From NCBI GenBank assembly GCA_030754235.1, contig JASMAS010000016.1, forward strand, positions 1 through 41,298: a stretch of 41,298 bases of DNA, written 5' to 3'. The notes below the pieces were generated by a model. It had not been told where the DNA came from and ran no database searches. It saw only the letters and a list, made by a program, of their open reading frames with translations. The DNA is from Litorilituus sp. Its GTDB lineage: Bacteria; Pseudomonadota; Gammaproteobacteria; Enterobacterales; Alteromonadaceae. This document shows, piece by piece, positions 31,570 through 41,158 of the stretch (position 1 is the first letter of the stretch; every line of letters starts with the position of its first letter). The position numbers were made by a program, and so were the translations under genes.

Positions 31570-32016
31570 TTATTGTTCACTGTCAGTGGTAAAAGTAAAC
31601 CCTTCGCTAAATAGTTGCTCATATATACTTTTCATGGCAATCGTATTTTCAGTTAATGAGTCATTCCACTTACTGCGCTTTTCAAAACCTAAATCACTAA
31701 TAAGATAATAGTAATCAGCGTTCAAATCACTCGCTTGAAGACAAGACTTAGTACAAGATAAACCACAACCATCGATAGCAATGATTGGTCGGCCTGACCG
31801 AGCTAGCTCGGTAATAGGCGGCACGTTACCAACAACACCTGAAATGCAAGACATTTCAGCAATGCCATCGCCATCTAAATTTAAGGCTATATTGTGTGCC
31901 ATTTGTGCAAGGTTTGAACAACCCGAACACGAATACACTATCGGTTTTTGTTGGTTAGCTTGCACATTATCTTTATTGTCTAACACAGGGCTATTTCTCT
32001 CTTTAATTAATATCAT
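31570..32016 (-). CDS. DGC-domain cysteine protein (putative zinc/metal-binding)
   Basis: The protein has 148 residues. The core reads YSCSGCSNLAQMAHNIAL, followed by MSCISGV and IDGCGLSCTKSCL, giving Cys 30, 33, 57, 84, 88 and 92 and the DGC signature of the DGC family, often annotated as putative zinc-binding. The clustered cysteines suggest a bound metal or a thiol chemistry role; no reaction is established. A perfect FNR box lies about 58-71 bases upstream, so low-oxygen induction is likely. No strong SD precedes the ATG, which leaves the start less certain. It is cytoplasmic, with no signal or membrane helix. Confidence 0.78.
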   Translation of the reverse strand: MILIKERNSPVLDNKDNVQANQQKPIVYSCSGCSNLAQMAHNIALNLDGDGIAEMSCISGVVGNVPPITELARSGRPIIAIDGCGLSCTKSCLQASDLNADYYYLISDLGFEKRSKWNDSLTENTIAMKSIYEQLFSEGFTFTTDSEQ

Positions 32017-32564: not shown

Positions 32565-34304
32565 ATGGAACAAACATTTATCAAAGGCAAAGACTGTGCG
32601 CTTGAAACCTCTATTACCAGCATGCAAGAAAAACTCATCTCATTTGGCTTTGATATTGAAGAAGCCTCGTGGTTAAACCCGGTTAAAAATTGCTTTTCGG
32701 TACACATTAAGGACAAAAGCTGTGGCTTAATGTTCACTAATGGCAAAGGTTCTACGGCAAAGTCTTGTTTAGCCAGTGCTTTAGGCGAATATTTTGAACG
32801 CCTAAGCTGCAACTATTTTTTTGCTGACTTTTATTTGGGTGAGAAAATTAGCCATGATGAGTTTGTGCATTACCCTAATGAAAAATGGTTCTTCAGCGAA
32901 GATGACACCATGCCAGAGGGGATATTGGATGAGCAATTATGGCAGTACTTTGACCCTAATAGTGAAATCACGGTAGATAAGCTATACGACATGAATTCTG
33001 GTGCGGGTGAACGCGGAATCTGTGCTCTGCCTTATACCCGAGAGCGTGACCAACAAGATGTTTACATTCCAGTTAGTGTTATTGCTAATGTTTTTGTCAG
33101 TAATGGTATGTCTGCTGGTAATACAAAAAATGAAGCGCGGGTACAAGGGTTGTCTGAGGTGTTCGAACGTTATGTAAAAAATAAAATAATTGCACAAGGC
33201 ATTTGTTTACCCGAAATCCCTAGCCATGTTTTAGCCCGTTTCCCTACTATTTTAGCTGATATTAAAGAGTTAGAGAGTCACGGTTATCACTTAAGAGTAT
33301 GTGACGCATCACTAGGCGGTGTGTACCCGGTAATGAGTGTTACGTTAATAAACCCTAAAGATGGCAGCGTTTTTGCCTCATTTGGTGCTCATCCAAGCTT
33401 TGAGGTTGCACTAGAGCGTACCGTAACAGAACTTTTACAAGGTAGAAGTTTAGAGCAACTCGATGTATTTCAGCCACCAAGTTTTGATGAGGAAGAAATA
33501 GCTTCACCGCACAATATTGAATTACACTTTATCGACTCAAGCGGCTTTATTTCTTATGATTTTTTCAAAGATGTGCCTGACTATGACTTTGTAGACTGGG
33601 ATTTTGATGCCGACACAGAGACAGAATATGACAATTTAGTGAACGTTATTCACACTATGGGATTTGATATTTATATATCAGATTACAATCACTTAAATGT
33701 TTATGCCTGCAGAATTCTTGTACCGGGTATGTCAGATATTTATCCTGTGGATGAAATTGTGTGGAATAACAACAATGACGGAGCCTTATTTCGTGAATCA
33801 TTTCTGACCTTGAAAGAGTTAACATCAGAAGATTGGTTAGCCACTCTTGATGCGCTAGAGCAAGGTGGTTATAACGACGCTATGGCGGCTGCAGAGTTTA
33901 TCGGTTTAGCACCGGATGCTGGTACGACTTGGTTTGATCTGCGCATCGGCGAAATTAAAGCGATGTTAGCCCTCGCAGCACAAGATGAACAAGCACTTGA
34001 TTGGGTAAACTGGGCATTACACCTTGACCAAAACAATGAAGAAAACACACGTAAATATCGCTGTTTACAAGCTTTATTAGAAATTAAGTGGGATGAGAAT
34101 AAAGAATACGGCCCTTATATGAGCTCATTAGCCCTTATGTATGGTAAAGAAATGAGTGAGAACTGCTTAGCGATTGTAGAAAGCAAAGTCATTTTTGATG
34201 GCTTACATTGCCCAGGTTTAGGCTTAGAAGGGTTTAAAACTCACGGAAAATTGCTTGAAGGCTACGAAAAACTACAAGCAGCTAAAAGAGTAAATTGGTC
34301 TTAA
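32565..34304 (+). CDS. ycaO: YcaO, accessory factor for RimO methylthiolation of ribosomal protein S12
   Basis: The protein has 579 residues (E. coli YcaO has 586). The opening MEQTFIKGKDCALETSI and the following EEASWLNPVKN, TNGKGST and ALGEYFERLSCNYFFADF closely match the E. coli protein, which assists beta-methylthiolation of Asp88 of S12. It has the ATP-binding YcaO fold (about 60-390) and a helical C-terminal extension of about 150 residues as in E. coli. It is a single gene with its own promoter, convergent with yehS. YcaO enzymes in RiPP clusters make azolines or thioamides, but this full-length match argues for the housekeeping type. Confidence 0.92.
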   Translation: MEQTFIKGKDCALETSITSMQEKLISFGFDIEEASWLNPVKNCFSVHIKDKSCGLMFTNGKGSTAKSCLASALGEYFERLSCNYFFADFYLGEKISHDEFVHYPNEKWFFSEDDTMPEGILDEQLWQYFDPNSEITVDKLYDMNSGAGERGICALPYTRERDQQDVYIPVSVIANVFVSNGMSAGNTKNEARVQGLSEVFERYVKNKIIAQGICLPEIPSHVLARFPTILADIKELESHGYHLRVCDASLGGVYPVMSVTLINPKDGSVFASFGAHPSFEVALERTVTELLQGRSLEQLDVFQPPSFDEEEIASPHNIELHFIDSSGFISYDFFKDVPDYDFVDWDFDADTETEYDNLVNVIHTMGFDIYISDYNHLNVYACRILVPGMSDIYPVDEIVWNNNNDGALFRESFLTLKELTSEDWLATLDALEQGGYNDAMAAAEFIGLAPDAGTTWFDLRIGEIKAMLALAAQDEQALDWVNWALHLDQNNEENTRKYRCLQALLEIKWDENKEYGPYMSSLALMYGKEMSENCLAIVESKVIFDGLHCPGLGLEGFKTHGKLLEGYEKLQAAKRVNWS

Positions 34305-34344
34305 CCAGCTGTTAATAACAATTACCGCTCAGCGAAGTCAAACT

Positions 34345-34380
34345 CTCATCACTAGCTTTATTTATAAAGCTAGTGATGAG
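34345..34380. terminator. 16-bp perfect hairpin between ycaO and yehS
   Basis: CTCATCACTAGCTTTA (34345-34360) and its exact complement (34365-34380) enclose the loop TTTA. Its place between convergent genes suggests a bidirectional terminator, but no T-tract follows on either strand. Confidence 0.6.
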
Positions 34381-34430
34381 TATAACTCAATGTCTCTAAA
34401 CTAAAGTAGATAAATCACCTTAACAAGGTG

Positions 34431-35084
34431 CTAGTTTAATTTCAGCGTTTTTCTTTTAGCATCAGTTTTTTTATCAGCATTGCTCGAGTTAGGGTTTACA
34501 TAAACAGCGCTAGCATTGGGTCTTGCTCCCTCAATTTTTGGCGCCTCATCCTTAGATTTATGCTTATTGAAAGTAGCCTTGCCTTTAGATTGCTCTTCTG
34601 GTTTTTTATCGTATTTAACAGTTCTGGCAACATGATACTTCTTATCAATTGCTTGCAATAAATTACGTAAAACCTGATCTTTACAAAGTCGATAATTTTT
34701 GTGTTCGGCCTTTCGGGAAAATGCCGTTAACTCAGGCTTGCTCAGACGAAAATCGACACTATTAAGTAAATCAATAAGTGCTTCAGATTGAAGATTTAAG
34801 GCTATTTTTAATTTAGTTAAAATAACATTATTTGTTAGCCTTTGCTCTGCAACTGCTTGCTTGCCCTCCTTTTTACCACGCTTTTCATTGATAAAACCAT
34901 TAAGAAAGCTTGCTAGCTCTACATCGGTGCACTGCGCAAAATCAGTATCATTATCTTTTTTCAATCGTTGACTAATATACTCTCGGTTAACGGCCATACC
35001 ACCGGAGGCAAACAAAGCGACCATTTGCTTATCATTATAATTAAAAGTGTAGCGTAGGCGACGGAGAACATCGTTATTATTCAA
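34431..35084 (-). CDS. yehS: YehS-like DUF1456 protein
   Basis: The protein has 217 residues. Two DUF1456 repeats are visible: NNDVLRRLRYTFNYNDKQMVALF (about 3-25) and NNVILTKLKIALNLQSEALIDLL (about 85-107). E. coli YehS has 156 residues; here a Lys-rich, low-complexity tail of about 60 residues is added (160-217), possibly for nucleic-acid binding. The start is TTG (35084), with AAGGA at 35095-35091 six bases away; no in-frame ATG would keep the first repeat. The function is unknown. Confidence 0.82.
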   Translation of the reverse strand: MNNNDVLRRLRYTFNYNDKQMVALFASGGMAVNREYISQRLKKDNDTDFAQCTDVELASFLNGFINEKRGKKEGKQAVAEQRLTNNVILTKLKIALNLQSEALIDLLNSVDFRLSKPELTAFSRKAEHKNYRLCKDQVLRNLLQAIDKKYHVARTVKYDKKPEEQSKGKATFNKHKSKDEAPKIEGARPNASAVYVNPNSSNADKKTDAKRKTLKLN

Positions 35085-35290
35085 AGGAAATCCTTAGTGT
35101 AGAAAAGTAAGCATAATACAAAAATCAGCTTTTATCAGTGTTAAAATCAGTTGTAACGGTTTAAAAAGTTAGCAAGCTTTAGAGCAAAAGTGATCCGGCT
35201 TAAATCCAACAATAAATTTGTTCAATTACCTTAATAACTTAGCCAGCTTAGCGTTACATTAATGAACTTAACATAAAAAAATTAGATTTA

Positions 35291-35331
35291 TGTTGTGCGT
35301 TTACCAATTGTAGAGCACTAGCAAATGGCGA
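35291..35331 (+). repeat. 41-bp inverted repeat, left arm
   Basis: This 41-bp stretch, starting TGTTGTGCGTTTACC and ending GCAAATGGCGA, is matched at 39 of 41 bases by the reverse complement of 35931-35971. It is a detached piece of the TTATACCAA-type repeat copy on the other side of the EGKCG peptide gene. The rest of 35085-35458 is AT-rich with no gene apparent. Confidence 0.85.
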
Positions 35332-35405
35332 TATTAAAGAGTAAAAGACAGTAAAAACTGGGTAATTTTAGCAGTTTTCATCTTGATTAAAAATAGCTAA
35401 AAAAA

Positions 35406-35425
35406 AACGAGCTATAAAGCTCGTT
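35406..35425 (-). terminator. terminator after the EGKCG peptide gene
   Basis: AACGAGC (35406-35412), the loop TATAAA and GCTCGTT (35419-35425) form a 7-bp stem. On the minus strand it is followed by a long T-run (A-run at 35399-35407 on the plus strand), so it terminates the peptide gene transcript. Confidence 0.85.
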
Positions 35426-35458
35426 GATGTAGAGGGGTTGCAAAGTTAGCAGCGTAAA

Positions 35459-35731
35459 TTATTCACCGCATTTTTTACTTTTTCCTTCGCCACATTTACC
35501 TTTTTTGGCTTTGTTTTCGCCGCATTTACCTTCGCCACATTTACCTTTTTTGGCTTTGCTTTCGCCACATTTACCTTCGCCGCACTTGCCCGCTTCTGCA
35601 TGTACAGTTTGGGTGATAGCTTCTTGGGCAGTAAATGGATTAATTTCAGCGTTAACGACATGAGTGGCAAAAAGAGAAAACGCAACAAAGCCCATTAGCA
35701 CCGATAAGCCAGATTTTTTCGATAGATTCAT
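35459..35731 (-). CDS. secreted EGKCG-repeat peptide, HvfA-like RiPP metallophore precursor
   Basis: The protein has 90 residues. A signal peptide (about 1-28, cleaved after VVNA) precedes a linker and a Cys/Gly/Lys-rich tail built from a 15-residue repeat: residues 48-62, 63-77 and a partial 78-90. Cys are at 50, 55, 65, 70, 80 and 88, with two EGKCG motifs. This matches the HvfA family from Haemophilus, whose EGKCG cysteines are converted to oxazolone-thioamide groups by an MNIO (DUF692) enzyme with HvfC, giving copper-binding peptides. No such enzyme gene is in the window, so modification here is an inference. The ATG at 35731 has AAAGGA eight bases upstream; a longer reading to 35797 lacks this and would spoil the signal peptide. 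Confidence 0.7.
   Translation of the reverse strand: MNLSKKSGLSVLMGFVAFSLFATHVVNAEINPFTAQEAITQTVHAEAGKCGEGKCGESKAKKGKCGEGKCGENKAKKGKCGEGKSKKCGE
35479..35591 (-). repeat. 45-bp coding tandem repeat in the EGKCG peptide gene
   Basis: The segment encoding residues 48-77 is two copies of a 45-bp unit (GKCGEGKCGE[S/N]KAKK), and a third, shortened unit follows. The DNA copies are nearly identical, including synonymous positions, which points to recent duplication and potential length variation. Confidence 0.8.
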
Positions 35732-35805
35732 GATATATTTCCTTTTGAGTAAAATGACAAAGAGAGGGTAAAATTTTTTAAAATTAAATAACTTCATTTG
35801 CTCTT

Positions 35806-35997
35806 GTTGTTATACCAAGTACATTAATTGATCACTTAACGAGAATTAAAAGCTTAAAGGCAAGGTATTGATTAAAGAGAATGGTTATCCCCTTGTCAAA
35901 ATAAATAACGAAGCATGTAAGATTGTAAACTCGCCATTTGCTAGTGCGCTAAAATTGGTAAACGCACAACATTAATGTAATTGATGTTAGTTATACG
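35806..35997 (-). repeat. TTATACCAA-type intergenic repeat element, copy B
   Basis: Read on the minus strand this runs from GTATAACTAACATCA near 35997 to TACTTGGTATAAC near 35806. It shares the blocks TTTTGACAAGG, AACCATTCTCTTTAATCAAT and TTTTAATTCTCG with copy A (15978-16540), but lacks that copy's extra hairpins and MITE. It includes the right arm (35931-35971) of the 41-bp inverted repeat around the EGKCG gene. It lies between the TonB2 operon's 3' end and the peptide gene, with no coding potential. Confidence 0.65.
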
Positions 35998-36060
35998 ACA
36001 TTTTATAGAGACCATCAAGTTGTACATAAAATTTCAAAAAAATCATATTTTATAAATAAA

Positions 36061-36084
36061 AAAACCAGCGGTTAAGCTGGTTTT
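36061..36084 (-). terminator. terminator of the TonB2 operon
   Basis: AAAACCAGC (36061-36069) and GCTGGTTTT (36076-36084) form a 9-bp stem around a six-base loop. On the minus strand a T-run follows, 31 bases or so after the TPR gene stop. The plus strand also ends in T, so it may work both ways. Confidence 0.85.
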
Positions 36085-36115
36085 TCACAAAGTGTATCTT
36101 GCTAGTTAGGCTTAA

Positions 36116-37414
36116 CTAGATTGAAACATTTTTTCGCCTTGCTGTATCGGCAATAAAGCTCTTCCAACCTTTAGCCGATTTACGTGACTTAGGGTCTTTT
36201 ATTGCTTTATTAATAGCCGCATAAGCTTTTTTGTACTTTTCAAGGTAAAAGTAAGACGCTGCAATATCCATATGAATACGGCCTTGATTTTTAATCCCAA
36301 GCGTAAGCGCTTTTTGAAGCGCAGGAATAGCTTTTGAAAATTGTTCATCCTGCTTTAATAGCATACCTTGTTTGCGATAATGCTTAGCTTCATTGGTCAT
36401 TTTAGCCAGTTCACCATAGTACTTAGCTGCCTTACCTATATGCATGGCGGCATGCCATGTGTTAGCTAAGGTCGAGATGTTTTTATCATCACGAGTGATA
36501 TCACCAGACGCAATATGTTTTTCTAATAACTTGGCCGCTTTATAAGGAGCTTCGTTAGAAGAATACAAGCTAGCTAAGGTTTTAAACTGAGATTCTTTTT
36601 CAAGAAACCCCTGTTTATAAGCTAAGTCGAGTGTTTGCACAGCTTTAGGGTAATCTTCCACTAACAAGTAAAACATAGGTAGTTGAGTCCACCACGCCTT
36701 ATTTTCAGGGAAAATTAAAATCACCGTCTCTAATACCTCAACAGCTTTTTTATACTTTTTACGTTCATAGTATGAATTAAGCTTTAGCACATAAGGATTT
36801 TGATTAGGTTTATCACCAAAAGCGGCGATAGCTCTATCAGCTGGTTCAATCATTTTATCTAATTGTTTCAACTCATAGTTTGCTTGGGCTATTTTAACCC
36901 AAGTATTGCCATCCTCTTTGCCCGTAAAATCCATCCATGCGTAATAGTTTTTTAACGCATTTTTGTATTTCTTAGTTTGCATTTGTAAATCAGCTAATAA
37001 TTTCAATGCTTCGCCATGGTCACCTTCATTTAAAATGTCGGGACCGACAGCAAGCTTCAAATACTTAATCGCTTCTTTTTCTTGGTCACCTTTTGTGGCG
37101 TACATCACCGCAATAAAACGCGCAACGTACGCTTTGTCGTAATCCTTCTTGGCATTAATGTCCAATAAAACAACTAAGGCACCATCGATATCAGACTCAA
37201 TACCTTCCTTTTCGTTACCAGAGTAAAGTTCGAAAGCTTTTTGTACTTTCTTACCCACCGATGGACCAATCAATTGCGTAGGACGTTTTTTCTTTTCTTC
37301 TTTAGCGCCAGCAGCATTTGCAATATCTGTAAATGGCGCTTGAGCGACTAAAAGTGAAGCGATAACAACTAAAGAAGTCGATAACTTTTTAAATGTGTTC
37401 TTATTCAAAATCAT
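36116..37414 (-). CDS. periplasmic TPR protein of the TonB2 operon
   Basis: The protein has 432 residues. A signal peptide (about 1-34, ending DIANA) is followed by helix-turn-helix TPR-like repeats from about 60 to the end (for example AIKYLKLAVGPDILNEG, AVQTLDLAYKQGF and AIPALQKALTLGI). In Vibrio and relatives a TPR protein closes the TonB2 cluster and takes part in TonB2-dependent uptake, so a periplasmic scaffold role is inferred. The start overlaps the tonB2 stop in TAATG. It is the last gene before the operon terminator. Confidence 0.85.
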   Translation of the reverse strand: MILNKNTFKKLSTSLVVIASLLVAQAPFTDIANAAGAKEEKKKRPTQLIGPSVGKKVQKAFELYSGNEKEGIESDIDGALVVLLDINAKKDYDKAYVARFIAVMYATKGDQEKEAIKYLKLAVGPDILNEGDHGEALKLLADLQMQTKKYKNALKNYYAWMDFTGKEDGNTWVKIAQANYELKQLDKMIEPADRAIAAFGDKPNQNPYVLKLNSYYERKKYKKAVEVLETVILIFPENKAWWTQLPMFYLLVEDYPKAVQTLDLAYKQGFLEKESQFKTLASLYSSNEAPYKAAKLLEKHIASGDITRDDKNISTLANTWHAAMHIGKAAKYYGELAKMTNEAKHYRKQGMLLKQDEQFSKAIPALQKALTLGIKNQGRIHMDIAASYFYLEKYKKAYAAINKAIKDPKSRKSAKGWKSFIADTARRKNVSI

Positions 37415-38031
37415 TACTTCCCTCCGTCCATATTAAACTCAAGCTGTACTGTTAAACCTGGTTGTCTCATGGCTTTACCTTCAACAACTTTTGGCTTGTA
37501 CTTCCACTTTCTTAACGCACGCTTAGCTTCTTTATCAAAAATACGCTTAGGTTGTGCTTCTATTACTTTAACATCTTCAACACCACCAATTTCATTAATA
37601 GTAAATGAAAGTTTTACCCAACCTTCTTTACCATCACGAGCTGCTTGAATAGGGTATTTAGGCTCTATTCTAACAATTGGCGTTGCATCACCGTCACGGC
37701 CAAAACCAGCACCCGGAGCAGATAATCCCGTTGATGTACCAGATAACTGGACACCCGGCATGTTAAATTGCAACCCACCACTATCGTTACTCGCTTCAGG
37801 CTCTGGTGGAGCCTGCTTTGGCGGTGCTTTAGGTGGCGGTGGCGGCGGCGGCGGAACACGTCGACGCTGCTCTGCAGAAGACTTTGGCGGTGTAGTATTT
37901 ACTTCTACGATTATATTCTCTTGTGCCTCATCCTTGCTTCTATCACCTGATGAAACAAGAAAAGCCATAAAAGAAAATAAGCCAAAGGTTACCGCAGCGC
38001 CTAGTAGTATTGATACTAAAAAGCGAACCAT
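37414..38031 (-). CDS. tonB2: TonB2-type energy transducer
   Basis: The protein has 205 residues. An N-terminal membrane helix (about 4-27) is followed by a proline-rich spacer with a run of eight Pro (60-67) and a C-terminal TonB domain (about 110-200, GWVKLSFTINEIGGVEDVKV, then ALRKWKYKPKV). It carries proton-motive energy from ExbB/ExbD to outer-membrane receptors. The short length and the run of partner genes fit TonB2 rather than TonB1. The gap to exbD2 is three bases, and its stop overlaps the TPR gene start. Confidence 0.92.
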   Translation of the reverse strand: MVRFLVSILLGAAVTFGLFSFMAFLVSSGDRSKDEAQENIIVEVNTTPPKSSAEQRRRVPPPPPPPPKAPPKQAPPEPEASNDSGGLQFNMPGVQLSGTSTGLSAPGAGFGRDGDATPIVRIEPKYPIQAARDGKEGWVKLSFTINEIGGVEDVKVIEAQPKRIFDKEAKRALRKWKYKPKVVEGKAMRQPGLTVQLEFNMDGGK

Positions 38032-38034
38032 AAC

Positions 38035-38439
38035 CTACCCCTTAGCTGCAGCAATTGATATTTTAAGACCACTACCTGCTTCTTTAATTGCATCCATCAC
38101 TTTAACAACAACGCCATGCTTAGCATCTTTGTCAGCTTGAATGATAACTACATCGGTAGGTTGTTCAGCAAGTAATTTTTCAATCCTTGCGCCAACACGT
38201 TCGATGTCAACACGGCCTTTATCTAACCAAATTTCACCATTATCTTTAACTGCAATAAAAATATTGGCATTTTTTTGTTTAGTTTGTTGTGCCGCTTTTG
38301 GTTTATTTACTTCAATACCTGCTTCTTTAACAAAAGAAGTGGTTACAATGAAGAAGATCAGCATGATAAATACGATGTCAAGCATCGGTGTCATATCAAT
38401 TACCGCTTCTTCGTCCTCACGAATCTTTTTACGTGCCAT
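38035..38439 (-). CDS. exbD2: ExbD2, biopolymer transport protein
   Basis: The protein has 134 residues with one membrane helix (about 20-36), which carries the essential Asp21 (PMLDIVFIMLIFF), and a periplasmic domain of about 90 residues. Together with ExbB2 it forms the proton channel that powers TonB2. It lies 12 bases after exbB2 and three before tonB2. Confidence 0.93.
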   Translation of the reverse strand: MARKKIREDEEAVIDMTPMLDIVFIMLIFFIVTTSFVKEAGIEVNKPKAAQQTKQKNANIFIAVKDNGEIWLDKGRVDIERVGARIEKLLAEQPTDVVIIQADKDAKHGVVVKVMDAIKEAGSGLKISIAAAKG

Positions 38440-38451
38440 GAAAATATCTCT

Positions 38452-38976
38452 CTAGTGATGAGGTAAACTGTCAACCAGTTTAGCCTTTGCTAGTTTAACT
38501 TGAGCGTCTAACCTTGAACTGAAAAACACGCCAGATAATGCTGCTACCATACCGGCCATTGTCGGGATAGTTGCTTGTGAAATACCTGCGGCCATCAAAC
38601 GCGGATTACCTGTACCCTGTTGTGCCATAGTTTCAAACACCCCAATCATACCGGTTACTGTTCCCAACAAGCCAATTAACGGACACATTGCCACTAAGGT
38701 TTTGATGGTAAACATGCGCTGTTCAAGCAGCTCGTTTGCTTCGGAAATCCAAGTCTCTCTAATACGATGTGCATACCAAGATGTAGTGTCAGTACGTGCG
38801 TCCCAACGAGAAACAATATCGTTTTTCATTGTTGGGTATACTGACGTTAAGAACCAATAACGTTCTATCATCATAATCCACATCAATAAGAGTGCAAAAG
38901 CAACAACGTAAAGCACGTTACCGCCAGTTGCAATAAAACCCCTGACAGATTCCCAAAGCTCTATCAGGAATAACAT
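38452..38976 (-). CDS. exbB2: ExbB2, MotA/TolQ/ExbB proton channel protein
   Basis: The protein has 174 residues with three membrane helices. The conserved channel segment CPLIGLLGTVTGMIGVFE (about 115-132) and the following TIPTMAGMVAALSGVFF are typical of ExbB. It is short because the long N-terminal extension seen in its neighbour is missing, as usual for ExbB2. The start overlaps the stop of the TtpC gene in TAATG. Confidence 0.93.
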   Translation of the reverse strand: MLFLIELWESVRGFIATGGNVLYVVAFALLLMWIMMIERYWFLTSVYPTMKNDIVSRWDARTDTTSWYAHRIRETWISEANELLEQRMFTIKTLVAMCPLIGLLGTVTGMIGVFETMAQQGTGNPRLMAAGISQATIPTMAGMVAALSGVFFSSRLDAQVKLAKAKLVDSLPHH

Positions 38977-40325
38977 TATTTAGACTCCTTCTCTGCAATA
39001 GCAGCAATTAAACCAGCGCTTTGCTCGTCTAATTTTTGTAGAACGCCTTTCGCTTTACCCGCTACAACACTGTGAACTAAAATCAATGGTAGTGCACAAA
39101 TCAAACCTAGTGCAGTGGTTACTAATGCTAAAGAAATGTTACCAGCCATAATTTTAGGGTCACCAGTACCAAATAAGGTAATCGTTTGGAAGGTCATAAT
39201 CATACCAATTACCGTACCTAACAGCCCCATTAATGGTGCAATGGCAGCGAACATTTTAATTAAGTTAATACCACGGTCAACTTTTGGTGTTTCACGTAAA
39301 ATACCTTCATCAAGTTTAAGTTCAAGCGTTTCAGCATCAACAGACTTATTGTCTTGATATATTTTAAGTAAACGCCCTAACGGGTTGTTTTCATTTGCTG
39401 CATCAAGGTTTTTCTCTTGCGCTTTAATTTTAGCACTAGTTGCTGTTAGGTCGATGTAACGAACTACCGCAATAAGAAGACCAAAAATTAATAGAACCGT
39501 AATGGCATAACCCACTTGTTTACCTTCGTGGAAGAATTCTTCTAATGTTTTCTTACGTGTTTCTAGTGATAAAATACCACCACGCGAAGGATCCAGATAC
39601 ACACCAACATAACCTGAGCTAGCATTGAAAAAATCAGTTGCCGTCCCTGAAATATGACCCGCTGGTTGCTTAGGTAGCGGTTGAACTTGAGAAACTTCAT
39701 CATTGTAAGTTAAGTAACCATTGTTTGACACTAAGTTAAAAGTACCTAAACGAGTAATCGTTTCAGTAGACTTAGAACCATCTAAATTAGTCACTTCAGC
39801 GGTAAACTGTGCTACCTTACCCGACTCAGTCATCTCAGTTTGCAGTGCAAACCATAACTCTTCAAGGTCTTCTAAGGCAGGAATTGCACTTGCGTTAGCA
39901 ATGCGGTTAAGCGCTTCACCACGGCCAGGGTATTGAGCACTCACAATTGAGGTTGAAATTTGACCATAAGCACCGGCAGCAGCGGCACGTGACACACCAA
40001 ACATCTCACCTAAAGTACCGGTGGCATTGTCTAGCTCCACTTCTTTTTGTGCTAACGTAATTTCATTAGCAGCATATTCTTTATTTAAGCGTTTGCTGCG
40101 GGCTTCTTGGTTAGCTAATTCTTTTTTAGCTTTATTTAAAAGCGTTTGTTTGTTTGCACGTGCAGATTTAAACTCAGCTTCACGCTTTTTATCAAGCTTA
40201 GCTTCTGAAACACGGTCAGCTTTTACTTGCTTTAATAAATCATCTAATTGGTTGGCTTGCGTTGTTGCTACAAAGCCTGTTGCCATAACAGCTGCAACCG
40301 ATACAAAATTAATAAGTTTTTTCAT
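38976..40325 (-). CDS. ttpC: TtpC, large ExbB-like TonB2 accessory protein
   Basis: The protein has 449 residues. A signal peptide (about 1-24) is followed by a coiled-coil periplasmic region (about 25-115) and a beta-rich part. A membrane helix lies near 270-290, and a TolQ/ExbB domain (APLMGLLGTVIGMIMTFQ, near 365-382) makes up the C-terminal third. This domain order is that of TtpC in Vibrio, which is required for TonB2 function. Start and stop overlap the neighbours by one base each, so the operon is tightly coupled. Confidence 0.9.
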   Translation of the reverse strand: MKKLINFVSVAAVMATGFVATTQANQLDDLLKQVKADRVSEAKLDKKREAEFKSARANKQTLLNKAKKELANQEARSKRLNKEYAANEITLAQKEVELDNATGTLGEMFGVSRAAAAGAYGQISTSIVSAQYPGRGEALNRIANASAIPALEDLEELWFALQTEMTESGKVAQFTAEVTNLDGSKSTETITRLGTFNLVSNNGYLTYNDEVSQVQPLPKQPAGHISGTATDFFNASSGYVGVYLDPSRGGILSLETRKKTLEEFFHEGKQVGYAITVLLIFGLLIAVVRYIDLTATSAKIKAQEKNLDAANENNPLGRLLKIYQDNKSVDAETLELKLDEGILRETPKVDRGINLIKMFAAIAPLMGLLGTVIGMIMTFQTITLFGTGDPKIMAGNISLALVTTALGLICALPLILVHSVVAGKAKGVLQKLDEQSAGLIAAIAEKESK

Positions 40326-41104
40326 TATTTTGCTCCTGCTGCAAATACGGGTAATTTAGTTAAATCCATTGGAAGTTGTTTACGTGCCATAGCAATAGCA
40401 TCTTTAACTGGTTTTAAATATTCATCGCCTAATTCTTCCCATGAACGTGCTTCATTGTTCCACAACCAAGAACGTTTACCGTCTAATGATTGTGCCACTA
40501 AAGCAATACGCCCCATGTGAACGAAGTCAGCCGTTAACAATGTACCGTTAAAGTCTAACTCTGCTTGATAAGCATCAAAAATAGTACCGTAACCTGCTTC
40601 AATTTCGTACGCTTCAAGTACTAAACGAAACTGCTCAGAAGTTGTTACGTTAGAACTACCCATTACTTCACGTAAGTTAGCCACGCGCTCTTGACGACGG
40701 TCGATATTCATTGGCACATCAAGCTCAATAAATTTCTCTAAGGTGTCAATCATCTTGTACATTAGCGGTACAACACCTTGCTTAATTTTGTCTATGCCGT
40801 CAATTTGCTCTTGTAACGAGGCAATATTGGCTTTTTGATCATCAACCATACGCTGAACATGGTCATTGTAACCACGCAGTACGTCAGCTTCATCTACCGT
40901 GTTACGATATTCAGCAAGAAGTTCTTGCGTTTGCTCGTAAATGGTATTGATTTTGGCTTGTGATTTAGCTGATTGCTTAAATATTTTAGCTTCAGCTTTT
41001 TGAAGGTCTGTTAATGCATCAGCAGCAGCAATATTGCTACCTGATAATGCTAGTGCGCCTACCATCGCGGTGGCGATGAGGCTTTTCTTACTTACTTTGG
41101 ACAT
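40325..41104 (-). CDS. DUF3450 periplasmic coiled-coil protein of the TonB2 operon
   Basis: The protein has 259 residues. A signal peptide (about 1-29, ending NIAAA) precedes a long coiled-coil (about 35-110) and a C-terminal domain with SWLWNNEARSWEELGDEYLKPV. DUF3450 proteins open the TonB2/TtpC operons of Vibrio and Alteromonadales; the role is not known, probably a periplasmic partner of TtpC. I chose the ATG at 41104; a TTG three codons upstream is in frame but less likely. The stop overlaps the ttpC start in TAATG. Confidence 0.88.
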   Translation of the reverse strand: MSKVSKKSLIATAMVGALALSGSNIAAADALTDLQKAEAKIFKQSAKSQAKINTIYEQTQELLAEYRNTVDEADVLRGYNDHVQRMVDDQKANIASLQEQIDGIDKIKQGVVPLMYKMIDTLEKFIELDVPMNIDRRQERVANLREVMGSSNVTTSEQFRLVLEAYEIEAGYGTIFDAYQAELDFNGTLLTADFVHMGRIALVAQSLDGKRSWLWNNEARSWEELGDEYLKPVKDAIAMARKQLPMDLTKLPVFAAGAK

Positions 41105-41158
41105 AGTTCCCAACCAATTGCTATTTAAATTTTGATAACAAAGATTTTTGTTACCGCA

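Follow-up and report, generated by a model that had tools for sequence, protein, structure and literature searches.

The question raised by this locus is whether a peptide of the EGKCG type, a member of a large RiPP precursor family, can work in a genome without the enzyme that modifies its relatives. The window, i.e., the whole stretch of 41,298 nucleotides of Litorilituus sp. DNA that was analysed, carries such a gene (Table 1). Its initial annotation as an open reading frame for 90 residues with a 15-residue repeat, six cysteines and two EGKCG motifs is borne out by our reading of the sequence. The ATG lies at 35731 and the stop codon at 35459-35461 on the minus strand, with AAGGAAA shortly 5' of the ATG. 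All six cysteines are found in a KCG context, EGKCG being exact twice, and the 15-residue repeat is encoded by two 45-nt copies (35480-35524 and 35525-35569) of 93% identity. By eye, the N terminus (KK, a hydrophobic stretch, then VNA followed by E) is a plausible signal peptide. The AlphaFold model of the peptide is disordered (mean pLDDT 50), with a helix at residues 6-22 in this low-confidence model, so that metal binding is not backed by any fold. A beta-helix has been described for a mid-size Buf_EGKCG member (Antoine et al., 2025, PMC12452194); according to the model, it is not supported for the short peptide of the window.

Table 1. Features of the peptide locus and its candidate regulator (positions in the window, unless a contig is named).
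Feature	Position	Strand	Remarks
DGC-domain protein (PF08859)	31570-32016	-	several Cys; also close to the peptide gene in certain other Colwellia genomes
YcaO-family protein, two genes away	32565-34304		at 1.2 kb from the peptide gene; PF18381 present
DUF1456 protein, downstream neighbour	34431..35084	-	PF07308, 147.7 bits
Terminator-like hairpin and T run 3' of the peptide gene	35406..35425	-	similar ones by eye after many orthologues
EGKCG-type peptide ORF, stand-alone	35459..35731	-	90 aa; likely Sec signal, NPF motif, six Cys
Promoter-like element TGAAAT-N17-GGTCT, putatively of ECF type	36009..36036	-	0 mismatches; 277 nt 5' of the ATG
Terminator-like hairpin 5' of the peptide promoter, after the TPR gene	36059..36086	-	similar ones by eye in many orthologous flanks
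DUF3450 - ExbB1 - ExbB2 - ExbD - TonB - TPR, upstream neighbours	36116..41113	-	Pfam
ECF sigma factor, PRK12517 type (L286), followed by a DUF3379 gene	contig 74, 14469-14981		NF009170, 291.5 bits

The resemblance to HvfA that had been proposed for the peptide stands at the level of the repeat and not at that of the full-length protein. The NCBIfam model NF050137 (HvfA-type KCGExKCG repeat) matches with 38.7 bits (cut-off 19.5, E 5.8e-10), and the profile search that had been suggested as a check of HvfA/EGKCG placement is therefore passed for this repeat model. The full-length HvfA equivalog NF050188 gives 42.2 bits, below its cut-off of 95, and the peptide is therefore not called HvfA here. 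This failure says little by itself, since an MNIO-adjacent peptide (L301, see below) likewise remains under the cut-off, with 64.8 bits. A Pfam search of the peptide with E up to 1 returned no family, neither DUF2282 (PF10048) nor a metallothionein. As for the modification itself, the oxazolone/thioamide chemistry first put forward for the EGKCG family is superseded, having since been reassigned to 5-thiooxazole (PMC13097082, PMC13419390).

The absence of hvfB and hvfC near the peptide gene extends to the whole assembly, which is rated 100% complete: profile searches of it gave no match to MNIO (PF05114) and none to DUF2063 (PF09836), with positive Caulobacter controls. As no MNIO was found in the assembly, the earlier suggestion of a modifying enzyme from another place in the genome is unlikely to hold for an MNIO. 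The peptide is not an isolated orphan either, as had first been assumed, but part of a subfamily. In the genus set called Colwellia here (39 genomes, including that of the window and a Litorilituus record), the repeat model matches in 33 genomes and MNIO in 20. Eighteen of the 33 peptide-bearing genomes are without an MNIO match and 15 have one; five genomes have MNIO and no peptide match, including G031, where the peptide is cut off at a contig end and is not counted in the 33. In a sample of 295 genomes of the bacterial family, 217 have the peptide, 212 have MNIO and 174 have both, MNIO being found without the peptide in 38 and the peptide without MNIO in 43 of the 217. These 43 genomes belong to 11 genera, in six of which no sampled peptide-bearing genome has MNIO, and some of them are single-contig assemblies (e.g., G014, G078, G139, and G253). 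No MNIO was seen in the flanks examined at 33 loci of 32 Colwellia genomes, nor in those examined at 35 loci from further genera, in genomes lacking MNIO. Stand-alone precursor genes are mentioned by Antoine et al. (PMC12452194), who found Buf_EGKCG without MNIO in 67 of 2583 complete genomes, termed this situation rare, and proposed either unmodified activity or loss of function.

The stand-alone peptides can also be told from the others by their sequence. A motif found in this analysis as a feature of MNIO-adjacent members, and not taken from the literature, is [SAT]GY, located between signal and core in 24 of 26 MNIO-adjacent peptides vs. 0 of 67 stand-alone ones; the two exceptions have MAYQ (G217) and SGFM (G267) instead. 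NPF is present in 67/67 stand-alone peptides and in many MNIO-adjacent peptides, too. The peptide of the window has NPF and lacks [SAT]GY. The comparison loci are 28 in number, taken from among the best-scoring of 217 genomes and not at random, 26 of them with MNIO within the 3 kb examined. In this set, G074 has SGY, with MNIO about 59 kb away, and the largely masked peptide of G206 is counted as being without the motif and is left out of the trees. A 78-aa open frame of G155 with a repeat match is outside all motif, promoter and tree counts.

In the peptide tree, stand-alone and MNIO-adjacent peptides are separated by a single branch (support 100/97), and the same split is obtained with four further rows (100/99). 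The trees are based on 67 columns and have no outgroup root, so that they do not distinguish between enzyme loss and an unmodified ancestor. One genome, G290, holds both types: a DSGY peptide (L301) with MNIO and DUF2063 genes after it, plus a separate stand-alone NPF peptide (L302), each of them on the expected side of the tree (100/99). The stand-alone branch of which the window peptide had been proposed as a candidate is thus real by recurrence, motif and tree. One possibility is that [SAT]GY serves in recognition. For HvfA, the role of leader falls to the signal peptide itself, and modification drops strongly once it is removed (PMC13419390).

In 32 Colwellia genes (that of G005, split over two contigs, is not among them), all 337 cysteines past residue 30 are in a CG context. 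Their codons vary (TGT 235, TGC 100), as do those of the preceding lysines (AAA 217, AAG 118). The mean number of cysteines is 10.3 in the genomes with MNIO (n = 15) vs. 10.8 in those without (n = 17), and that of EGKCG motifs 4.3 vs. 4.4. That cysteines and lysines are kept despite codon change, with similar counts with or without MNIO, argues for selection on the sequence even where MNIO is absent, although the repeat units are also kept similar by exchange among them. For the N-terminal part, the median dN/dS is 0.31, over 166 non-independent pairs.

The number of repeats is very variable among the Colwellia peptides (6 to 19 cysteines in the 32 genes), as would be expected from unequal exchange between repeats. 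The copy of the window is the shortest of the 32, with the fewest cysteines (6; mode 11), and is on a long branch in the tree. Its gene has on both sides a 68-nt inverted repeat (35269-35336 and 35926-35993, 84% complementary), the 41-nt core of which occurs in its own genome only as this pair. No pair near such quality was seen in the 31 other Colwellia flanks, the next best being 46 nt at 74% (G002). The inverted repeat accompanies a longer distance from promoter to ATG, 277 nt vs. 54-106 nt in 29 of the 32 genes. A mobile cassette delimited by this repeat was considered and rejected, the repeat being private to its own genome, and a plasmid search with 34000-37000 returned a single record, matching ycaO alone.

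The position of the peptide gene is conserved in Colwellia. In the 33 genomes with the peptide, and as far as the contig reaches, its gene is directly 3' of the TPR gene in the TonB operon, and the DUF1456 gene comes next after it wherever the contig reaches. Among the 35 loci from outside the genus, in genomes without MNIO, 7 (three genera) share this place and 27 lack the operon nearby, the remaining locus being that of G155, with a TonB operon near its peptide frame. Separate transcription units are suggested for the two genes by the hairpin that parts the TPR gene from the promoter of the peptide, the count of terminator-like sites in the region (2 vs. 1.3 expected from shuffles) carrying little weight alone. 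Given this hairpin, the peptide's own promoter and the 27 loci without the operon, the TonB link looks like an inherited position. The TonB operon, fixed in Colwellia and not seen at the 27 other stand-alone loci, was rejected as a functional partner.

Upstream of the peptide genes, TGAAAT-N17-GGTCT is found with at most one mismatch at 39 of the 40 stand-alone loci that have the TonB operon beside them, at 22 of the 27 other stand-alone loci (4 match at N16) and at 20 of the 28 comparison loci, 26 of which are MNIO-adjacent. Other spacings of TGAAAT and GGTCT give 0-4 loci per set, and in resampled sequence the three sets average 0.08, 0.12, and 0.10 loci, with at most 1; start codons were picked by rule, and some of the upstream windows are thus misplaced. 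Such a constant distance points to an ECF-type sigma-factor promoter. A sigma-70 promoter noticed by eye, TTGATG-N17-TATAAC, overlaps the element; it is less conserved than TGAAAT/GGTCT and appears less probable, and a sigma-70 scan gave 2 sites vs. 5.0 expected.

A longer pattern, TGAAATTTT-N14-GGTCT, has its best match in the 500 nt before the 32 Colwellia genes with 0 mismatches in 25 cases, 1 in 6 and 2 in 1. In the genome of the window it is exact solely at the peptide, with two 1-mismatch matches besides; with up to two mismatches it has 45 matches vs. 51 for the reversed control. Since these matches are no commoner than those of the control, the longer pattern alone defines no regulon. 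In the 39 Colwellia genomes, 40 matches with at most one mismatch were obtained vs. 34 for the reversed control, and all 25 exact matches but one are at the peptide locus, the exception (G029) being located before a DUF2282 gene. The element is also present with 0 mismatches at the bufA1 operons of G022 (L306) and G029 (L305), two genomes with no peptide match; the operon of G029 contains, according to Pfam, MNIO, DUF2063 and DoxX, and the element is found in this genome 5' of a second DUF2282 gene (L139), too. G010 has three MNIO clusters, none of them with a 0-mismatch copy. In G290, the element is exact at the stand-alone peptide and absent, at up to one mismatch, at the MNIO-side peptide.

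The genome of the window has 18 PF08281 matches, 14 of them over the cut-off, and the surroundings of the eight best were scanned for the element. Matches with 2 mismatches are common there; a single one among the eight is just before a start codon, that of the PRK12517-type gene on contig 74. Close orthologues of this gene are found in 39/39 Colwellia genomes (30 loci, L310-L339, of which 27 were placed and 3 were not placed by the anchor). The element precedes their own start with at most one mismatch in 23 of 27 and with at most two in 27 of 27; a spacing of 12 also matches, in 5 (at most one mismatch) and 22 (at most two) of the 27, via a stretch rich in A+T that overlaps with the same GGTCT. 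As the copy of the window's genome has 2 mismatches, the case for this regulator rests on its relatives. Autoregulation is typical of ECF factors, and it is suggested here by the presence of the peptide's element 5' of the orthologues' own start; the PRK12517-type sigma factor may well drive the peptide gene. Among the papers searched, none mentions DUF3379 or PRK12517, and nothing relevant was listed on Colwellia, copper and RiPPs together. The word "promoter" is absent from the main text of Antoine et al. (PMC12452194); what is new beyond that 2025 survey is the coherent subfamily, its N-terminal signature, the promoter and the candidate sigma factor.

When known systems are compared, the captophorins (HvfA/oxazolin, fontiphorin, gonophorin, bulbicupramide; Buf_EGKCG) are the closest to the window peptide in having a likely signal-type N terminus, a repeated EGKCG-like core, C-X4-C pairs and a match to NF050137, and TGAAAT-N17-GGTCT is also found in most of the MNIO-adjacent members of its bacterial family. 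Unlike them, it comes from a genome without MNIO and DUF2063 matches, lacks [SAT]GY, is on a separate side of the tree and under the HvfA equivalog cut-off, and is presumably devoid of 5-thiooxazole. The bufferins Buf1 (DUF2282) and Buf2 are exported cysteine peptides, as the window peptide probably is, and their bufA1 operons in G022 and G029 share the element; they are, however, MNIO-modified, whereas the window peptide has no DUF2282 match. Bacterial metallothioneins recall the working mode proposed for the peptide, i.e., free cysteine thiolates that would buffer metal, but their cysteine spacing is different, and the window peptide is likely exported, repetitive, rich in Lys, Gly and Glu, and without a Pfam match.

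All these results make it reasonably probable that the peptide belongs to an enzyme-free (MNIO-independent) branch of the HvfA/captophorin peptides that would be ECF-induced and exported and would probably bind Cu(I) through cysteines left as they are. Envelope or metal stress would lead the ECF sigma factor, with its putative DUF3379 anti-sigma partner, to activate the gene; the peptide would be exported via Sec, and its C-X4-C cysteine pairs, as free thiolates, would bind Cu(I) or another thiophilic metal. It could in this way act as a periplasmic or secreted metal buffer needing no maturation enzyme. Copper is proposed as the metal because of the family (PMC13097082, PMC12538549) and of the element common to two bufferin operons. 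Caution is nevertheless required, as free thiols outside the cytoplasm may be prone to disulfide oxidation, and the MNIO of 15 of the 33 peptide-bearing Colwellia genomes could act in trans there. In a study on Microbulbifer, the EGKCG system of this genus escaped detection whether copper was present or absent, and the protection from copper was only slightly better with modified MmrA than with MmrA alone (PMC12538549).

The main rival, which we regard as unlikely though worth serious attention, is that the peptide, exported and rich in thiols, serves above all as a sacrificial antioxidant against reactive chlorine, oxygen or sulfur species, the ECF factor sensing oxidants as RpoE2 does in Haemophilus. 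The ECF-type promoter before the peptide genes would be in agreement with this, no enzyme is required for free thiols, and HiRpoE2 governs msrAB in the HOCl response (PMC7907618). The KCG context, kept by all cysteines of the 32 Colwellia genes, is however not obviously needed for a scavenger, the element 5' of two bufferin operons points to copper, and the parallel is a loose one, as the sigma factor may be unrelated to HiRpoE2. It seems improbable to us that the peptide is modified by a non-MNIO enzyme encoded elsewhere, even though its core motif is kept as well as in modified relatives and the YcaO gene of the window lies close to it. This gene was found in the examined flanks of just 7 of the 32 other peptide-bearing Colwellia genomes and, as a neighbour that is not conserved, was rejected as the source of the modifying enzyme; its PF18381 is the C-terminal domain of the E. 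coli-type YcaO, a protein with a housekeeping role. No recurring enzyme gene was seen beside the stand-alone peptides among their neighbours, which are annotated in part. We give an equally small chance to a wider version, in which the whole stand-alone clade would be matured by an undiscovered non-MNIO enzyme encoded away from the peptide, i.e., to a second EGKCG cysteine chemistry in the MNIO-less Colwellia relatives.

Two other explanations appear less probable still. The peptide could be a decaying relic of an MNIO-linked cluster, functionless at present, as its genome has neither MNIO nor DUF2063 matches, the copy of the window is the shortest, has the fewest cysteines and is on a long branch, and loss of function is one of the possibilities named by Antoine et al. 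(PMC12452194). This is very doubtful, since the frame is intact, the cysteines are kept despite codon change, and promoter and position are kept across the genus. The smallest probability goes to a secreted metallophore, re-imported through a receptor powered by the adjacent TonB system. The place of the gene after the TonB operon, in 33 Colwellia genomes and at 7 loci outside the genus (three genera), would fit, and G022 has a TonB-dependent receptor with a 1-mismatch element, the identical site being found in G029. However, single 1-mismatch sites are at chance level, because the reversed control gives 34 matches for 40 real ones in the 39 genomes, and neither G022 nor G029 has the peptide; furthermore, the peptide gene is separated from the operon by its own promoter and a terminator-like hairpin, and 27 stand-alone loci of other genera have no TonB operon nearby.

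If the reading of an enzyme-free branch is true, the shared promoter and the ECF/DUF3379 pair would provide a regulatory handle on these peptides, whose inducer has been elusive in at least one genus, Microbulbifer (PMC12538549). Modified and unmodified EGKCG peptides, present even inside the single genome G290, would offer a natural test of what 5-thiooxazole adds. Finally, a large RiPP precursor family would have a coherent branch living without the modifying enzyme, and the core repeat would be valuable by itself.
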